From positions 1 through 14,072 of the forward strand of contig JALUVB010000060.1 in assembly GCA_027021085.1 (NCBI GenBank): DNA of 14,072 nt. The letters are read 5' to 3'. Each line of letters begins with the position of its first letter. The first letter of the stretch is position 1. The position numbers and the translations under genes were made by a program. The notes beneath the pieces are model-generated. The model was not told the origin of the DNA and ran no database searches. It was given only the letters and a program-made list of their open reading frames with translations. Below, piece after piece: positions 7,747 to 14,072 of the stretch. Source of the DNA: a bacterium (GTDB lineage Bacteria > CAIJMQ01 > JAADFP01).

Positions 7747-7748
7747 CT

Positions 7749-7843
7749 ATAGACTTTAGACCATAGACTTTAGACTGTAGACTGGGAGTATAGTAAACAG
7801 TGAACAGTAAATAGTAAATGGTGAGAAAGTAGCGGGTAGCGAG
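7749..7843. repeat. Degenerate heptanucleotide tandem repeats (array 2)
   Basis: Five units of one type come first: atagact (7749), ttagacc (7756), atagact (7763), ttagact (7770), gtagact (7777). After gggagta they shift to tagtaaa (7791), cagtgaa (7798), cagtaaa (7805), tagtaaa (7812), tggtgag (7819), then after 4 nt to tagcggg (7830) and tagcgag (7837). The later units are the reverse complement of array 1 at 2064-2130. The array begins right after the stop of the oxidoreductase gene. Confidence 0.75.
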
Positions 7844-8049: not shown

Positions 8050-8058
8050 TGGTATAAT
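8050..8058 (+). promoter_or_regulatory. Extended -10 promoter for the permease/SPFH operon
   Basis: TGGTATAAT at 8050-8058 is a consensus extended -10 element (TGnTATAAT). No good -35 is found 16-18 bp upstream, which extended -10 promoters tolerate. Transcription would begin near 8065 and leave a leader of about 65 nt before the ATG at 8130. Confidence 0.5.
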
Positions 8059-8129: not shown

Positions 8130-9074
8130 ATGAGAGCTTTCCCTGCGTTAGCCCACATTTCGTTCTATAATGTAATCCGCCAGCCGTTTTTTGCCCTTAT
8201 TACCGTGGGGTCTTACCTTTTTATCCTGGCCAGCCCTGCCTTTACCATGTTTACTCTCATGCATGCAAAAAAGCTGATTTTAGATATGGGAATGGCTACT
8301 ATTCTTTTATCCGAACTGGGAGTGAGCGTGCTGGGTATTTTCTCTATTGTGGGAGGAGAAATGGAGGAGAAGACGAGTACCCTTCTTTTGAGTAAGCCGG
8401 TATCCCGTTTTACTTTTCTCGTTTCCAAGATATTTGCCGTGGCTATTTCTCTCTTGTTTGTGCTTGTTCCCCTAATTATTATCCTTATAATGACTTTGAA
8501 AATGGGAGTGCCGGAAGCAGCTTACAGCGAGGTTAAGTATTCTATACTCTGGTTCGAGTTTTTGCCGTTGCTGGTGGCAGTAATTCTGGCGGGAGGGGCC
8601 AATTATTATGCTGATAAAAATTTTGCTTCTGCTTTTGTCATCTCACTGAATATTTCTCTTATCCTCTCTCTCCTGATTCTTTATTTCGTTGACAAGAGTG
8701 CTCTTCAACTGAATTTGTTCCTTCCGGCCGCTTTTCTCTGGATGGCAGGGATAGTCATGGCACCGGTGGCTTCTCTCTTTTCACTGAGAGGGAAGTTATT
8801 TTTTACCCTGACTTTTTCTTTCCTGATTTTTATGCTTGGGCTTACTTCGGATTACCTTTTAGGTAAGTTTATGCATAATCCGGGGGTAAAAATTGTATAT
8901 TCCCTCATACCGAATTTCCAGGTTTTCTGGAGCGAGGAAACCTGGTTAAAAGGAGGAAGTATAAACTTGCAATATCTGTTAAAGGCACTGGGGTATATGT
9001 TTTTCTATACCCTGGGCATGACGTTTTTAGGCTGGAGTATCTGGGAGAGGAAGGAGGTATCCGGTGGAAGATAA
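8130..9074 (+). CDS. ABC-2 type transporter permease subunit
   Basis: An inner-membrane protein of 314 residues with about six to eight hydrophobic spans (near 20-43, 55-75, 99-123, 139-156, 164-187, 196-219, 222-243, 280-305). The segment GEMEEKTSTLLLSKPVSR at 76-93 is the coupling-type motif seen in ABC-2 permeases of the NosY/GldF sort, after the second span. Such subunits need an ABC ATPase; none is encoded in the window, upstream or downstream. The substrate is unknown. The ATG at 8130 has no clear Shine-Dalgarno sequence. The gene is first in a compact operon and its end overlaps the next gene by 11 nt, so it is probably made together with the SPFH proteins. Family call good, partner and cargo unknown. 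Confidence 0.85.
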   Translation: MRAFPALAHISFYNVIRQPFFALITVGSYLFILASPAFTMFTLMHAKKLILDMGMATILLSELGVSVLGIFSIVGGEMEEKTSTLLLSKPVSRFTFLVSKIFAVAISLLFVLVPLIIILIMTLKMGVPEAAYSEVKYSILWFEFLPLLVAVILAGGANYYADKNFASAFVISLNISLILSLLILYFVDKSALQLNLFLPAAFLWMAGIVMAPVASLFSLRGKLFFTLTFSFLIFMLGLTSDYLLGKFMHNPGVKIVYSLIPNFQVFWSEETWLKGGSINLQYLLKALGYMFFYTLGMTFLGWSIWERKEVSGGR

Positions 9075-10938
9075 GGACAAATTACGGCGAGGTTTCCAGG
9101 TAGCCTTGGGAGCTTCCCTGTTCCAGGTTTTCTTGTCCTTAGTCTTCTACATAATGTATTTGCAGGTGAAGTCTCCTCTTCTGCTCCTGGAATCTTTCCA
9201 TGCCGGCATAGGTATTCCCATTTTCACCCTGCTCTTTCTCCTTTTCCAGCAGAGGTACAGGGAAAGACTGGAAAGGGATGAGGTGGAAGAGCTTGCCAAA
9301 AGGGAAGGGCGGATGTTCAGGGACGAGGAAAGCGCCCTGCTAATTTCCCGCATACGTCTGAGGCAGACTGAAAAGTGGGTAATTCCCGGGGTGACTTTAA
9401 TACTCTCCTTCCTCATGTTCTACGTCCCTTTCAAAATAATGCTCTATTTCGGCGGGAAGGGCATTCACTACCAGGCAAGCCCGGCAGTTTCGCTGTTGCT
9501 TATCGGGTTGACTTTTCTTATCTTTTTGTTCTCCCGCTATGTCGTGGGCATGTCCAAAGAAAAATTATGGCGTGAGCTGCGCAGTATCGGTACCTTTTTG
9601 GGGGTTAATGCTCTTTTCGCATTTCTTGTGGCCATATCTTTGACTTTAAGGAAATTTGGCCTTCCCAAGGTGGAATGGTTTATTTTCTACCTGCTCAATA
9701 TTTTGCTCATCGCAGTGGGGTTTGAATACCTGCTGAATATTATTCTTTCTTTTTACCGTTCTTCCAAGGCAGAAAAACGGATTTCTTTTGATTCCCGGAT
9801 TTTATACCTTCTTTCCACACCGGAGGAAGTTATCCCTTCTTTCTCGGAAATACTTGATTACCAGTTTGGCTTTCGTATTACCCAGACCTGGTTTTACCAG
9901 TTTGTAAAGAAGCGTGTTATCCCCCTTGTCCTATTGCAGATTGCCCTGCTTTACTTGTTGACCTGTTTTGTGATTGTAAGGCCGTATGAGAGAGCGTTCA
10001 TAGAGTTCCTGGGGAGGCCTATAGAGGGGGGGAAGGTTTTTGGACCCGGAATTCATCTCAAGTTTCCCTGGCCTATTGGAAAGGCGAGAATTTACGATGT
10101 GGAGCGGATAAAGGTCATCCGTGCCGGGGTGCGTGGCAAAGAGGGAGAAAGGGTACTCTGGACGGAAAGGCACTACGAGGAAGAGTTTAACTGGATAATC
10201 GCCAGCAAGGAAGGTGCTGCTGCTTCTTCTTCCCGTTATACCTCTGTCCCGGTGAATTTCCTTACCGGTGTGGTCTGGGTTTACTATCGCATTGACCCTG
10301 AACGGTTATTTGACTATGCATATACCCAGGCTCAGCCGGGTAAGCTATTAGAAAGCCTTGTCTATAACCAGTTTACCAGGATGATGATGAACGTGGATTT
10401 TTTCGAAGTATTGAACGTGAAGAGGCTTTCGCTTACCAATATGCTCAAGAAAAGTATTCAGAAAGAAGCGGATAAGCATAACCTGGGAGTAAAAATAGTT
10501 ATGGTGAGTGTGGGTAATGTTCATCCGCCCGTGGAGACGGCATCGAGTTTTGAAAAAGTTGTGGGGGCAATGGAAAGAAAGGAAGCGTATATTCTCGGTG
10601 CGGAATCTTACAAGAACCGGGAACTTACCCTGGCAGATTACGATGCTTCCCGGGTAAAAGTGCAGGCTGAGTCTTACAGGTTGACCAGGTCCGTGGAATC
10701 GAAAGCACGGGGGGAAGAGTTTTTAAAGGAATTGCAGGCTTACCAAAAAAATCCTCGCATTTTCAAATACAGGCACTACTTGAAAACACTGGAAAGGAGT
10801 CTCCTTTCTCCCAGGAAATATATTGTGGTTTCATCTGAGAGAGAAAGAAATGTCACTGTGCTTGACCTGGAGAAGACGCCTCTGCCTGATATTCTTTCCT
10901 TAGGTCTGGCAGCAGAAACAAAGGAGATTAAAAAATGA
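9064..10938 (+). CDS. Polytopic SPFH/band-7 protein, HflK-like
   Basis: This 624-residue protein starts with about seven predicted membrane spans (near 13-32, 42-62, 105-128, 138-161, 174-195, 203-228, 283-305). They are followed by an SPFH/band-7 domain from about 302 (VIVRPYERAFIEFLGRP, then GPGIHLKFPWPIGKARIYDV) to about 490, and a charged helical region from about 495 to 580. E. coli HflK has a single span and about 420 residues, so the N-terminal 280 residues are an added membrane module. An insert of about 40 residues (354-395) splits the band-7 domain before the SVPVNFLTG strand. SPFH proteins form ring or cage scaffolds; HflK/HflC cage the FtsH protease in E. coli. The GTG start is backed by AAGGAGG at 9051-9057, 6 nt upstream. 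It overlaps the permease by 11 nt and the next gene by 4 nt. Family call firm, role inferred. Confidence 0.88.
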   Translation: MEDKDKLRRGFQVALGASLFQVFLSLVFYIMYLQVKSPLLLLESFHAGIGIPIFTLLFLLFQQRYRERLERDEVEELAKREGRMFRDEESALLISRIRLRQTEKWVIPGVTLILSFLMFYVPFKIMLYFGGKGIHYQASPAVSLLLIGLTFLIFLFSRYVVGMSKEKLWRELRSIGTFLGVNALFAFLVAISLTLRKFGLPKVEWFIFYLLNILLIAVGFEYLLNIILSFYRSSKAEKRISFDSRILYLLSTPEEVIPSFSEILDYQFGFRITQTWFYQFVKKRVIPLVLLQIALLYLLTCFVIVRPYERAFIEFLGRPIEGGKVFGPGIHLKFPWPIGKARIYDVERIKVIRAGVRGKEGERVLWTERHYEEEFNWIIASKEGAAASSSRYTSVPVNFLTGVVWVYYRIDPERLFDYAYTQAQPGKLLESLVYNQFTRMMMNVDFFEVLNVKRLSLTNMLKKSIQKEADKHNLGVKIVMVSVGNVHPPVETASSFEKVVGAMERKEAYILGAESYKNRELTLADYDASRVKVQAESYRLTRSVESKARGEEFLKELQAYQKNPRIFKYRHYLKTLERSLLSPRKYIVVSSERERNVTVLDLEKTPLPDILSLGLAAETKEIKK

Positions 10939-11852
10939 GTAAAAGAAGAATCTGGAACCCATATACTTTTTTTCTGGGGTTGTTCCTGCTTATCATTCTG
11001 GTTCTTTACCTTATTGCCTTCCAGGTGCCGGTGGGCAAGATGGCAGTGGTGACTACATTTGGCAAGCCGGTGCGGGTAATAACTGAACCGGGGCTCTACT
11101 GGAAGGCTCCCTGGCCCATTCAGGAAGTATATCATTTTGATGGCAGGATTAATGTCCTGGAAAGCAAGATGGAGGAAACTTACACGCGGGATGGGAAAAA
11201 TATAATTTTAATTACCTCTACTTTCTGGAAAATAAAAGAACCGCTAAAATTCTTTACTTCGGTAGGCAGCAAAGATGCGGCAGAGAGAAAGCTGGTTTCC
11301 CTGGTAAGAAATTATGAAAACGGGGTTATAGGTACTTACGAGCTTTCCCAGCTGATTAATGTGAATAAGAAATTACTCAAATTAGACGAAATACAGGAAA
11401 AAATCAAAGCCCTGGCTTCCGAAGAATCTGAAAAAACATACGGTATAAAAATCATAGAAGTGGTGCTTAAAAGGATACAGTTTCCTCAGGAGGTTACTCA
11501 GGATGTATTTGAAAGGATGCGGAAAGAAAGAGAGAGAATAGCCCAGAAATTCCTGGCGGAAGGTGAAGGCATGGCAAGCGACATAAAGGCGAAGGCAGAT
11601 GCAGAAAAAGACAAGATACTGGCAGAAGCACGGGCTCAGGCTAAAAGGATTAAAGGGGAAGGTGATGCAGAGGCTGCGCAGTACTATGATATTTTCAGCA
11701 AGAATGAGGACCTGGCAATTTTCCTGAGGAAACTGGAAGCGCTGGAGAACACGCTTAAGAGTAATTCTACTATCATCCTGGATAGCAGGACTCCTCCTTA
11801 CGATTTACTCTTGGGTGGATACCTGGAGAAAGAAAATGGCAAGAAAAAGTAG
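10935..11852 (+). CDS. hflC: HflC-like SPFH protein
   Basis: The 305-residue protein has one N-terminal membrane span (11-29) and then a band-7 domain: QVPVGKMAVVTTFGKPVRVI, then EPGLYWKAPWPIQEV. A long charged coiled region follows at about 190-250 and carries HflC's hallmark RMRKERERIAQKFLAEGEG and IKGEGDAEAAQYY. The length is close to E. coli HflC (334). With HflK it forms the membrane cage that restrains FtsH; no ftsH is in this window, so partner and target are inferred. The start overlaps the previous stop as ATGA, with AAGGAG at 10921-10926, 8 nt upstream, which predicts coupled translation and matched amounts. The best paralogue match is HflC rather than stomatin or prohibitin, because of the EGE and GEGDAEA motifs. 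Confidence 0.88.
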   Translation: MSKRRIWNPYTFFLGLFLLIILVLYLIAFQVPVGKMAVVTTFGKPVRVITEPGLYWKAPWPIQEVYHFDGRINVLESKMEETYTRDGKNIILITSTFWKIKEPLKFFTSVGSKDAAERKLVSLVRNYENGVIGTYELSQLINVNKKLLKLDEIQEKIKALASEESEKTYGIKIIEVVLKRIQFPQEVTQDVFERMRKERERIAQKFLAEGEGMASDIKAKADAEKDKILAEARAQAKRIKGEGDAEAAQYYDIFSKNEDLAIFLRKLEALENTLKSNSTIILDSRTPPYDLLLGGYLEKENGKKK

Positions 11853-12876
11853 GGAACAAAGCGAAGCATTAGAGTACTTCTCCCGTGCTCTGAAGCTGAG
11901 TTTCTATTTCCTTAAGGCGTTGGTAGCCATTCTGGTGATTTCCTATCTTCTCTCAGGTTTTTTTACTGTTAAACAGGATGAAGTAGCTGTAGTACTTCGC
12001 TGGGGAAAGATTAAAGGAGTCGGAGAGGAAAGGGTACTTAAACCCGGATTTCACTGGTCTTTTCCCGAACCCGTAGATAAAGTTGTGCGCATACCGGTTA
12101 AGAAAGTTAAATCCATAGAGTTGAGAACATTCTGGGACCCGGATTTAGACAAGAAGAATGTCAATCCTGCTCCTTTCCTGATTCCGTGGCTGCATGGATA
12201 TTTGATAACCGGGGATAACAATATTATTCATACTCTGTGGCATATAGAGTACCAGATAGATGACCCTATTTTATACCTTACTAATACCAGCCAGGAAGAA
12301 TCCATAATAAAAATCGCGGTCTCCAATGCCATAGTACGCGTAGGCGGAAGATTGTCGGTTGATGAGGCATTGCGCACCCGCCTGGAAACTTTTTCCCGCC
12401 TGGTAAAAAACGAAGCACAGAAGACACTGGATGAGGTGGATTCCGGGTTGACACTTGTGGCAGTGTACCTGGATCGTTCTGTTCCTCCCCTGCAAGTGGC
12501 CGATGCATTCAACAAAGTGATTAAATCCGAGCAAATCAAAAGTGCACGCATAAATGAAGCTAAATCTTATGCCAACCGGGTGGTAAATACTGCTATGGGG
12601 GAAGCGGCAAGGATTGTGGGAGAAGCAAACACCTACCGTAGCGAAGTAGTTAATGAAGCGCGTGCTGATGCCGAGTATATTGAAAAACTTACCCAGAAAT
12701 TCGGAGAAGGGAGCAAGGGGCTTAATGTGTATCTTGCCTACTTCTATCAGGAAAAGATAGAGGAAATCCTGGCCAATTTACAGAATAAATTTATACTGAA
12801 AAGACCATTCCCGGGCAAAGAGAATGAATTGAGAATAATCCTGGGAAAGAGACAAAGATGGAAAGAGAGTAAATAA
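11836..12876 (+). CDS. hflK: HflK-like SPFH protein
   Basis: From the ATG at 11836 the protein has 346 residues: a short basic N-terminus, one membrane span (22-42), a band-7 domain opening with VKQDEVAVVLRWGKI and KPGFHWSFPEPVDKV, and the HflK-type segment ITGDNNIIHTLWHIEYQIDDP at about 124-144. A helical region (about 225-290) rich in Ala, Glu and Arg follows. The E. coli protein is about 420 residues with a Gly-rich N-terminus, absent here. ATG 11836 is preferred over GTG 11815 because GGAG (11825-11828) lies 7 nt before it and nothing like a ribosome site precedes the GTG. It overlaps hflC by 17 nt. Presumed partner of the upstream HflC, giving three SPFH subunits in one operon. The hflK symbol rests on family resemblance only. 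Confidence 0.85.
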   Translation: MARKSREQSEALEYFSRALKLSFYFLKALVAILVISYLLSGFFTVKQDEVAVVLRWGKIKGVGEERVLKPGFHWSFPEPVDKVVRIPVKKVKSIELRTFWDPDLDKKNVNPAPFLIPWLHGYLITGDNNIIHTLWHIEYQIDDPILYLTNTSQEESIIKIAVSNAIVRVGGRLSVDEALRTRLETFSRLVKNEAQKTLDEVDSGLTLVAVYLDRSVPPLQVADAFNKVIKSEQIKSARINEAKSYANRVVNTAMGEAARIVGEANTYRSEVVNEARADAEYIEKLTQKFGEGSKGLNVYLAYFYQEKIEEILANLQNKFILKRPFPGKENELRIILGKRQRWKESK

Positions 12877-14072
12877 ATGAAAGAAGAACTTTACCATCCG
12901 GTGCATGCACATGAAGAAGAAAGGGAATTGGTGCGGCGTCTCATATTCACTCTTATCGGGGGGATTCTTATTTTTAATGCCTTTATAGCCACGCGCATGT
13001 TCCCGGACCGCCCGGAGATTTCCGGCATAAGTGCTTTACTGGGAGCCCTTCTCCTGGGTGTTCCCATGATAGTGGGTTCATTTAAAGGTTTCTTTACCGG
13101 CAAGCTCGAGCTTACCGAACTGGCCAGCATAGCAGTACTTGCCTGTATAGCCCTGGGATATTACGTTACCGCAGGAGTGGTAGCCTTTATTCTCATTCTG
13201 GGTCATCTCCTGGAGCACCGGACGGCCCTGGGAGCGCGGGAGGCTATTGAATCCCTGCTCAAGCTTACTCCGCCTACGGCTCATCTGGTGGTAGGAAATG
13301 AGGAAAGGGATGTAACTGTACGGGAGTTAAAGCCAGGGGACATTATCAGGGTAAAGCCGGGGGAAAATATCCCGGCTGATGGGATTATCAAGGAAGGGGA
13401 AACTACCATAAGCGAAGCTTCCATAACCGGGGAGTCTCTACCCGTGGATAAGGTTCCCGGAGAGCAGGTCTTTGAAGGGACCACAAATATCACGGGATCA
13501 GTTTTGCTTGAGGTTACCCGGGTAGGGGAGGATACTACCCTGGGAAAAGTAAAGCAGCTTATCCTGCAGGCGGAAAAGACGCGCATCCCCATAATTTCTC
13601 TCATGGAAAAATATGTTCAATGGTATATTCCGGTAATACTCATGATTTCTGGCCTGATACTTTTCTTTACCCGGGATGCTTTGCGGGCTATTGCTGCCAT
13701 AATTGTAGGGGTTCCATGTGCGCTTCTCTTAGCTACTCCTACTGTTATCATTGCAGTACTCTCTGCTTCTGCTCGGGCAGGCATAATGCTGAAAGAAACC
13801 GGCAAAATTGAGGTGGCCTCCCAGGTAAATGCGGTAGTTTTTGATAAAACGGGGACCCTTACTACAGGAGAGCCGGTGGTAAGTTCTCTCAATCCTCTTC
13901 CGGGAATTCCTCCGGAAAAGTTTATTTACCTGGTGGGAACAGTGGAAAAACATTCGCTGCATCCTGTGGCTAAGGCAGTACGAGAGCTGGTAAGGAAAGC
14001 ACGGATTAAAGTCGGCGAGCCGGAAGAGTTTGAGGAAATAGGAGGCAAGGGGGTAAAGGGAAAAGTAGAGGG
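12877..14072 (+). CDS. P1B-like cation-transporting P-type ATPase (3' end outside window)
   Basis: The first 398 residues of an ATP-driven membrane cation pump are present; the end lies beyond the window. About four spans fall within 20-125. The actuator domain carries TGES at 184-187, the next membrane helices hold VPC at 279-281 followed by ALLLATPT, the phosphorylation motif is DKTGT with D323, and the P1B-type HP motif appears as SLHP at 360-363. The fold matches heavy-metal (P1B) pumps, but the ion-site Cys-Pro-Cys is Val-Pro-Cys and no N-terminal metal-binding (HMA) domain exists. The N-terminus is short and has four histidines within the first 13 residues. The ATG follows the previous TAA with no gap. 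The cation cannot be assigned: Cu, Zn/Cd and Co-type pumps normally carry CPC, SPC or related triplets. Confidence 0.9.
   Translation, partial: MKEELYHPVHAHEEERELVRRLIFTLIGGILIFNAFIATRMFPDRPEISGISALLGALLLGVPMIVGSFKGFFTGKLELTELASIAVLACIALGYYVTAGVVAFILILGHLLEHRTALGAREAIESLLKLTPPTAHLVVGNEERDVTVRELKPGDIIRVKPGENIPADGIIKEGETTISEASITGESLPVDKVPGEQVFEGTTNITGSVLLEVTRVGEDTTLGKVKQLILQAEKTRIPIISLMEKYVQWYIPVILMISGLILFFTRDALRAIAAIIVGVPCALLLATPTVIIAVLSASARAGIMLKETGKIEVASQVNAVVFDKTGTLTTGEPVVSSLNPLPGIPPEKFIYLVGTVEKHSLHPVAKAVRELVRKARIKVGEPEEFEEIGGKGVKGKVE

Follow-up and report, generated by a model that had tools for sequence, protein, structure and literature searches.

The window, meaning the whole 14,072-nt stretch of DNA analysed, is one entire contig (G000:C60). 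Five plus-strand genes fill positions 8130-14072 in the ORF list, each overlapping or abutting the next; they encode an ABC-2-type permease, three SPFH proteins and a heavy-metal ATPase (Table 1). The gene of the 624-aa protein has a GTG start and an 11-nt overlap with the permease gene. An SPFH domain was found in each of the 624-aa, HflC and HflK proteins using Pfam and NCBIfam, with the HflC-type protein at 161.9 bits (TIGR01932, cut-off 134.4) and the 353-aa HflK-type protein at 162.6 bits (TIGR01933, cut-off 159.4), both above the cut-off. The hydropathy scan gave one hydrophobic segment in HflC, one in HflK and seven in the 624-aa protein. The ATPase matched E1-E2_ATPase in Pfam (E 2e-49) and TIGR01525 in NCBIfam (E 1e-89). 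The permease of the window had no significant Pfam match, and its orthologues at loci L007 and L009 matched ABC2_membrane_4 (E 8e-7 and 3e-7). The preliminary description of this DNA had listed the five genes in this order, with two single-span SPFH proteins and one seven-span SPFH protein, and the gene list and the hydropathy scan agree with it on both points. Its cation ATPase is present, with the corrections that only 398 of ~623 aa lie in the window and that the protein is of the P1B heavy-metal class; its compact operon also stands for the five genes, with the correction that three further genes follow downstream in relatives. Elsewhere in the window, a gene cut by the contig start (positions 3-1958) encodes a VIT and VWA domain protein that resembles sortase-target/inter-alpha-trypsin-like proteins (TIGR03788 below cut-off), and an intergenic degenerate short repeat, tagactttagaccatagactttagactgtagact then aacagtgaacagtaaatagtaaat, lies at 7747-7830.

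Table 1. Features of the window, with positions counted from its first nucleotide.
Feature	Position	Strand	Basis and remarks
TATAAT of extended -10 (TGGTATAAT)	8053..8058	+	Sequence; ~70 nt before permease start
ABC-2-type permease, 314 aa, operon head	8130..9074	+	ORF
Polytopic SPFH protein, 624 aa; seven hydrophobic segments, then HflK-type SPFH domain	9064..10938	+	Band_7, hydropathy
N-terminal six-segment membrane domain, residues 10-232	9091..9759	+	Hydropathy; absent from ordinary HflK
His370 codon, insert LWxxxH	10171..10173	+	13/13 polytopic proteins, 0/9 ordinary HflK
His487 codon, (V/I)HPP motif	10522..10524	+	13/13 polytopic proteins, 0/9 ordinary HflK
HflC-type SPFH protein, 305 aa, single span	10935..11852	+	TIGR01932
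Second HflK-type SPFH protein, up to 353 aa, single span	11815..12876	+	TIGR01933
P1B-type heavy-metal ATPase, first 398 residues, contig end	12877..14070	+	E1-E2_ATPase, TIGR01525

Similar TATAAT boxes are found upstream of the operon in L006, L007, L031, L033, and L013. In several relatives (L007 8900-9075, L033, and L013) only ~7-10 nt separate the end of the TATAAT from the start codon (ATG) of the head permease, and this nearness suggests leaderless operon transcripts in those relatives. One Zur-box-like match (12/13) was found at -84 in the window, where it overlaps the -10 element; it is not kept in the near relative L006, and no conserved Zur-box-like site was found upstream of the operons.

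The likeness of the 624-aa protein to HflK is confined to its C-terminal half, where Band_7 was placed at residues 304-514 (Pfam, E 7e-12). Its best NCBIfam model was HflK, at 107.4 bits and thus below the cut-off of 159.4, and its profile matched the solved HflK structure 7vhp (E 5e-17). With the N-terminus inside, the SPFH domain would lie outside the cytoplasm, like that of E. coli HflK, and the loop that joins segments 2 and 3, which is long and rich in arginine, would lie inside. Residues ~150-608 are homologous to the proteobacterial polytopic proteins described below (hhalign, E 1.4e-25), and the second half of the N-terminal membrane domain, taken by itself, can be aligned to the proteobacterial N-domain with E 8e-4. 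The 13 polytopic proteins compared for the two histidines in Table 1 come from two lineages. The LWxxxH insert that ends in His370 is family-specific and is followed by E in 12/13 proteins and then by IA[SG], and the position of His487 holds N, R, K or Y in ordinary HflK. Both residues fall in the predicted extracytoplasmic SPFH part, and it is a guess that they bind metal. AlphaFold, run with five sequences, modelled the 624-aa protein with a mean pLDDT of 43 and a pTM of 0.25. A scan of viral contigs with this protein gave no match. SPFH proteins have been described as having one membrane segment each (PMC12407830), a rule from which the polytopic protein departs.

When 72,556 plasmid records were searched by tblastn with the window protein as query, long genes annotated as 'protease modulator HflK' were reached in Burkholderia ubonensis, Paraburkholderia sprentiae, several Rhizobium and Klebsiella aerogenes. 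The order polytopic SPFH, HflC, HflK, P1B ATPase is kept in 7/7 genomes of the window's phylum and at 10/10 plasmid loci, which span alpha-, beta- and gammaproteobacteria; nine of the ten loci were read directly, and Rhizobium sp. T1470 is known from its matches alone. Queries with the polytopic protein (Burkholderia or Klebsiella), the third SPFH protein, and the ATPase (matches counted above 50% identity) returned the identical 10 of the 72,556 records. Because seven of the ten plasmid loci are from Rhizobium, they do not represent ten independent events. Repeated co-occurrence with the pump in distant lineages had been named in the preliminary description as support for a functional unit, and homologues of the polytopic protein away from the pump as evidence against it; the co-occurrence was found with its order kept, and no homologue apart from the pump was found among the 7 genomes and 10 plasmid loci. 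The Klebsiella-type unit was not found in E. coli genomes. The genes that flank the four-gene unit vary by lineage and the unit itself stays. In Paraburkholderia, genes for a zinc ABC importer, a GTP-binding protein and a PCu(A)C copper chaperone are found close to the unit. Synteny alone as the cause of the unit was dropped because the flanking genes differ between lineages. Judged by comparison of genomes, the SPFH-pump link is a conserved unit, and the evidence for a functional link is solid; the suggestion in the preliminary description that a mixed scaffold holds, regulates or quality-controls the pump is supported in part.

The ATPase was assigned to the P1B class by its E1-E2 and HAD domains, the DKTGT phosphorylation site and an xPC motif in TM4. 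Its matches in the PDB were 7r0g, 3rfu, 7qbz, and 4umv. A tree drawn without HmtA compared the linked ATPases with 18 other P-type ATPases, which were taken from plasmids and from the same genomes and included the proteins of the LpCopA and sCoaT structures; the linked ATPases of the phylum and of Proteobacteria form one clade in it (support 99/98). Within it, the TM4 motif is VPC(x)6P in the window's phylum (APC in G006), with HE(V/I/L)GS close to the C-terminus of the full-length proteins, whereas the proteobacterial linked ATPases have CPC(x)6P in TM4 and HNxxT near the C-terminus. The metal or the role may therefore differ between the lineages. The combination of VPC(x)6P and HE(V/I/L)GS is none of the reference motifs compared.

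HflK and HflC are known as partners of FtsH, which the HflKC assembly encloses. The absence of an FtsH gene from the locus, pointed out in the preliminary description, is true locally but carries no weight, as FtsH is encoded elsewhere in the window's own genome (G000). FtsH is likewise encoded in three other genomes of the phylum (4/7 in all) and was not detected in three operon-bearing draft genomes, one of them 96% complete. Ordinary HflK and HflC are encoded away from the operon in G000, G002, and G003. Since FtsH and an ordinary pair are present elsewhere, the operon SPFH proteins are extra copies that probably have another partner. In the SPFH tree, each lineage has its own tight groups of operon HflC, of operon HflK and of polytopic proteins. 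None of these proteins falls within the groups of ordinary HflK (88/82) or ordinary HflC (94/89), to which the separate pair of the operon's own genomes belongs. The operon HflC proteins of both lineages were joined weakly (85/67), and the tree left the order among the HflK-type groups open. A directly adjacent P-type ATPase was found at 0/6 ordinary short hflKC loci; in Methylophaga, one lies about 3 kb away on the other strand. These results bear on a quality-control role, in which an HflKC-like cage would recruit FtsH to the pump or limit FtsH action on it and would thus serve turnover and not transport. The HflK and HflC types of the SPFH proteins, the partnership known for the family and the FtsH genes in 4/7 genomes are in keeping with such a role, but FtsH already has a separate ordinary pair as partner in G000, G002, and G003, and the failure to detect FtsH in the three operon-bearing genomes also counts against it, weakly for drafts, so that quality control is unlikely.

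Ordinary hflK-hflC pairs were also seen on plasmids beside cation:proton antiporters (L104 6821-10208, L106 6836-10020, L105 6569-11350, and L102 1165-8832). On a Vibrio parahaemolyticus plasmid, nhaA overlaps hflC of the ordinary pair, and the antiporter gene follows immediately after hflC in Methylophaga, 1 kb on in Pontibacillus and ~4 kb away in Roseibium. SPFH pairs beside ion transporters may be a wider theme.

A probable relative of the unit is known by annotation in Pseudomonas aeruginosa, where PA2434-PA2439 encode the P-type ATPase HmtA (PA2435), an HflC-family protein (PA2437), HflC (PA2438) and HflK (PA2439) and are induced in a znuA mutant (PMC4542158). This annotation bears out the remark in the preliminary description that hflK and hflC lie near cation ATPases in other phyla. 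The PA2434-PA2439 proteins are up under zinc depletion (PMC11761036), the promoter of PA2439, which heads the locus, is bound by Zur, and one study saw no response of hmtA mRNA when zinc was added (PMC8531726). HmtA has been reported as a Zn/Cu importer, mainly by overexpression, and a review calls the import direction unconfirmed (PMC10393844). Three SPFH genes (PaFlo5-7) form one operon in strain PA14 according to the accessible part of PMC13086221, in which an ATPase goes unmentioned and deletion of the three genes gave phenotypes that were mild at most; zinc limitation is not among the conditions described there. PaFlo5-7 are presumably the PA2437-PA2439 genes. The joint induction by zinc depletion (PMC4542158, PMC11761036) would be accounted for by co-regulation only, with an SPFH set for membrane organisation and a pump that share a promoter under metal starvation without contact. 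This is quite unlikely, as four genes that keep their order and occur strictly together in two distant lineages, with their ATPases in a single clade, exceed what regulation usually needs.

Of the known zinc transporters looked for in the seven genomes of the phylum, an ABC-3 importer scored over the cut-off in 2/7, and ZIP was seen in 3/7 and CDF in 2/7; G003 (96% complete) showed no ABC-3 importer, ZIP or CDF, a suggestive but weak result. In the window's genome (L124 48-2871, G000:C23), a Fur-family regulator gene stands immediately ahead of the genes of a likely znuA-znuC-znuB importer, together a candidate Zur system.

In relatives with longer contigs (L007, L009, and L031), the permease again stands at the operon head, and three more genes downstream encode an ABC ATPase, an ABC-2 permease of ~435 aa and a ~525-aa protein that is anchored by N-terminal hydrophobic segments and had no significant match in Pfam or the PDB. 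The polytopic SPFH protein, the ATPase and the ~525-aa protein were each found in 7/7 genomes examined of this small phylum; the operon is complete on a single contig in three of them and breaks elsewhere only at contig ends. A search of genome contigs with the window protein reached only four loci, all in the window's own clade. The same operon start was seen on a contig filed under Vermiphilus sp. (L008 1-6708), probably misbinned because its SPFH proteins fall inside the clade of the window's phylum. In Candidatus Manganitrophus (Nitrospirota; L130 6789-9801), genes for an ABC ATPase, a hypothetical product (1.3 kb) and a homologue covering the N-terminal part of the ~525-aa protein follow one another next to pilus genes, with neither SPFH nor pump genes there. 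That the operon of this phylum is mainly an ABC-export machine (two ABC-2 permeases, the ABC ATPase, and the ~525-aa anchored protein), with the SPFH scaffold and the pump as accessories, for example for a metal-binding envelope component, would suit the 7/7 occurrence, the ABC genes in the same operon and the similar trio on its own in Candidatus Manganitrophus, but it is improbable because proteobacterial units without ABC genes keep SPFH and pump, which makes the ABC part an addition in the window's phylum.

The best-supported mechanism is a dedicated SPFH dome around the pump, in which the products of the four linked genes would assemble and dock. The probability that these products make up a single membrane assembly, with a mixed SPFH dome dedicated to one P1B metal ATPase, is put at about 0.5. 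HflC, HflK and the polytopic HflK would co-assemble, their SPFH domains extracytoplasmic like those of E. coli HflKC; the polytopic subunit would use its additional membrane helices to dock the pump beneath the dome, and the dome would form a chamber at the outer mouth of the pump. Histidines of the chamber would bind or pass on the metal, most likely Zn2+ and possibly Cu, so that metal would pass between pump and chamber without ever being loose in the envelope. The operon of the window's phylum has gained an ABC exporter module besides. The more specific version, an extracytoplasmic SPFH microcompartment in which the polytopic subunit anchors the P1B ATPase and the invariant histidines act as a metal relay at the pump mouth, is tentative. 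The reading of pump and dome is drawn from the conserved order, the ATPase clade of its own, the distinct SPFH proteins, the extra membrane domain and the invariant histidines; the six ordinary hflKC loci with no directly adjacent P-type ATPase, the varying flanks, the neighbours of the Paraburkholderia unit and the response of the P. aeruginosa cluster to zinc depletion also speak for it. Counted against it are the low AlphaFold confidence, the VPC and CPC motifs, the lack of a conserved Zur-box-like site, the lack of a response of hmtA mRNA to added zinc, the unconfirmed import direction and the mild SPFH deletion phenotypes, as far as the accessible part of their source goes. There is a precedent in stomatin domes, which enclose AQP1 and UT-B (PMC12407830).

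The core gene set is already known in one species, P. aeruginosa, by published annotation. What appears to be new is the unit across phyla, its polytopic subunit, the ATPase clade that the lineages share, and the variant extended by ABC genes; no literature on an SPFH-P1B unit across phyla or on a polytopic first protein was found in a search with subscription journals mostly outside its scope. The conserved order in a little-known phylum and in Proteobacteria suggests a dedicated membrane compartment around a metal transporter. We know of no assigned cargo for most bacterial SPFH cages, and the strict conservation of three SPFH proteins with one pump clade names a likely one. If true, the cargo of a bacterial SPFH cage would here be a transporter and not a protease. 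Metal import by the P-type ATPase HmtA is disputed, and such a cage could account for the ability of a P1B ATPase of this sort to act as an importer.

HflK- and HflC-type SPFH domains are common to the window and to the E. coli HflK-HflC/FtsH system. The window differs in that its SPFH proteins number three, not two, and include a polytopic one, and in the link of this phylogenetically separate set to a P1B ATPase and not to FtsH. With the P1B ATPases ZntA, CopA, and sCoaT, the window ATPase shares the E1-E2/HAD core, DKTGT and the TM4 xPC(x)6P; it differs in its separate clade, in its short N-terminus (first hydrophobic segment from residue ~18), in VPC in place of CPC or SPC, and in the HE(V/I/L)GS of its full-length relatives. 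The principle proposed as common with human stomatin and AQP1 or UT-B is an SPFH dome enclosing a transporter. Stomatin is cytoplasmic and homo-oligomeric with one intramembrane segment, whereas the genes here point to a mixed extracytoplasmic set with a polytopic subunit. The nearest known system is PA2439-PA2435, a single Zur-regulon cluster likened to the window by annotation and gene order and not by sequence: like the window, it has an HflK-family first gene, HflC, a further SPFH gene, and a P1B ATPase gene, whereas the window's phylum adds the head ABC-2 permease and the ABC module, and the window ATPase has VPC where the proteobacterial linked ATPases compared have CPC.
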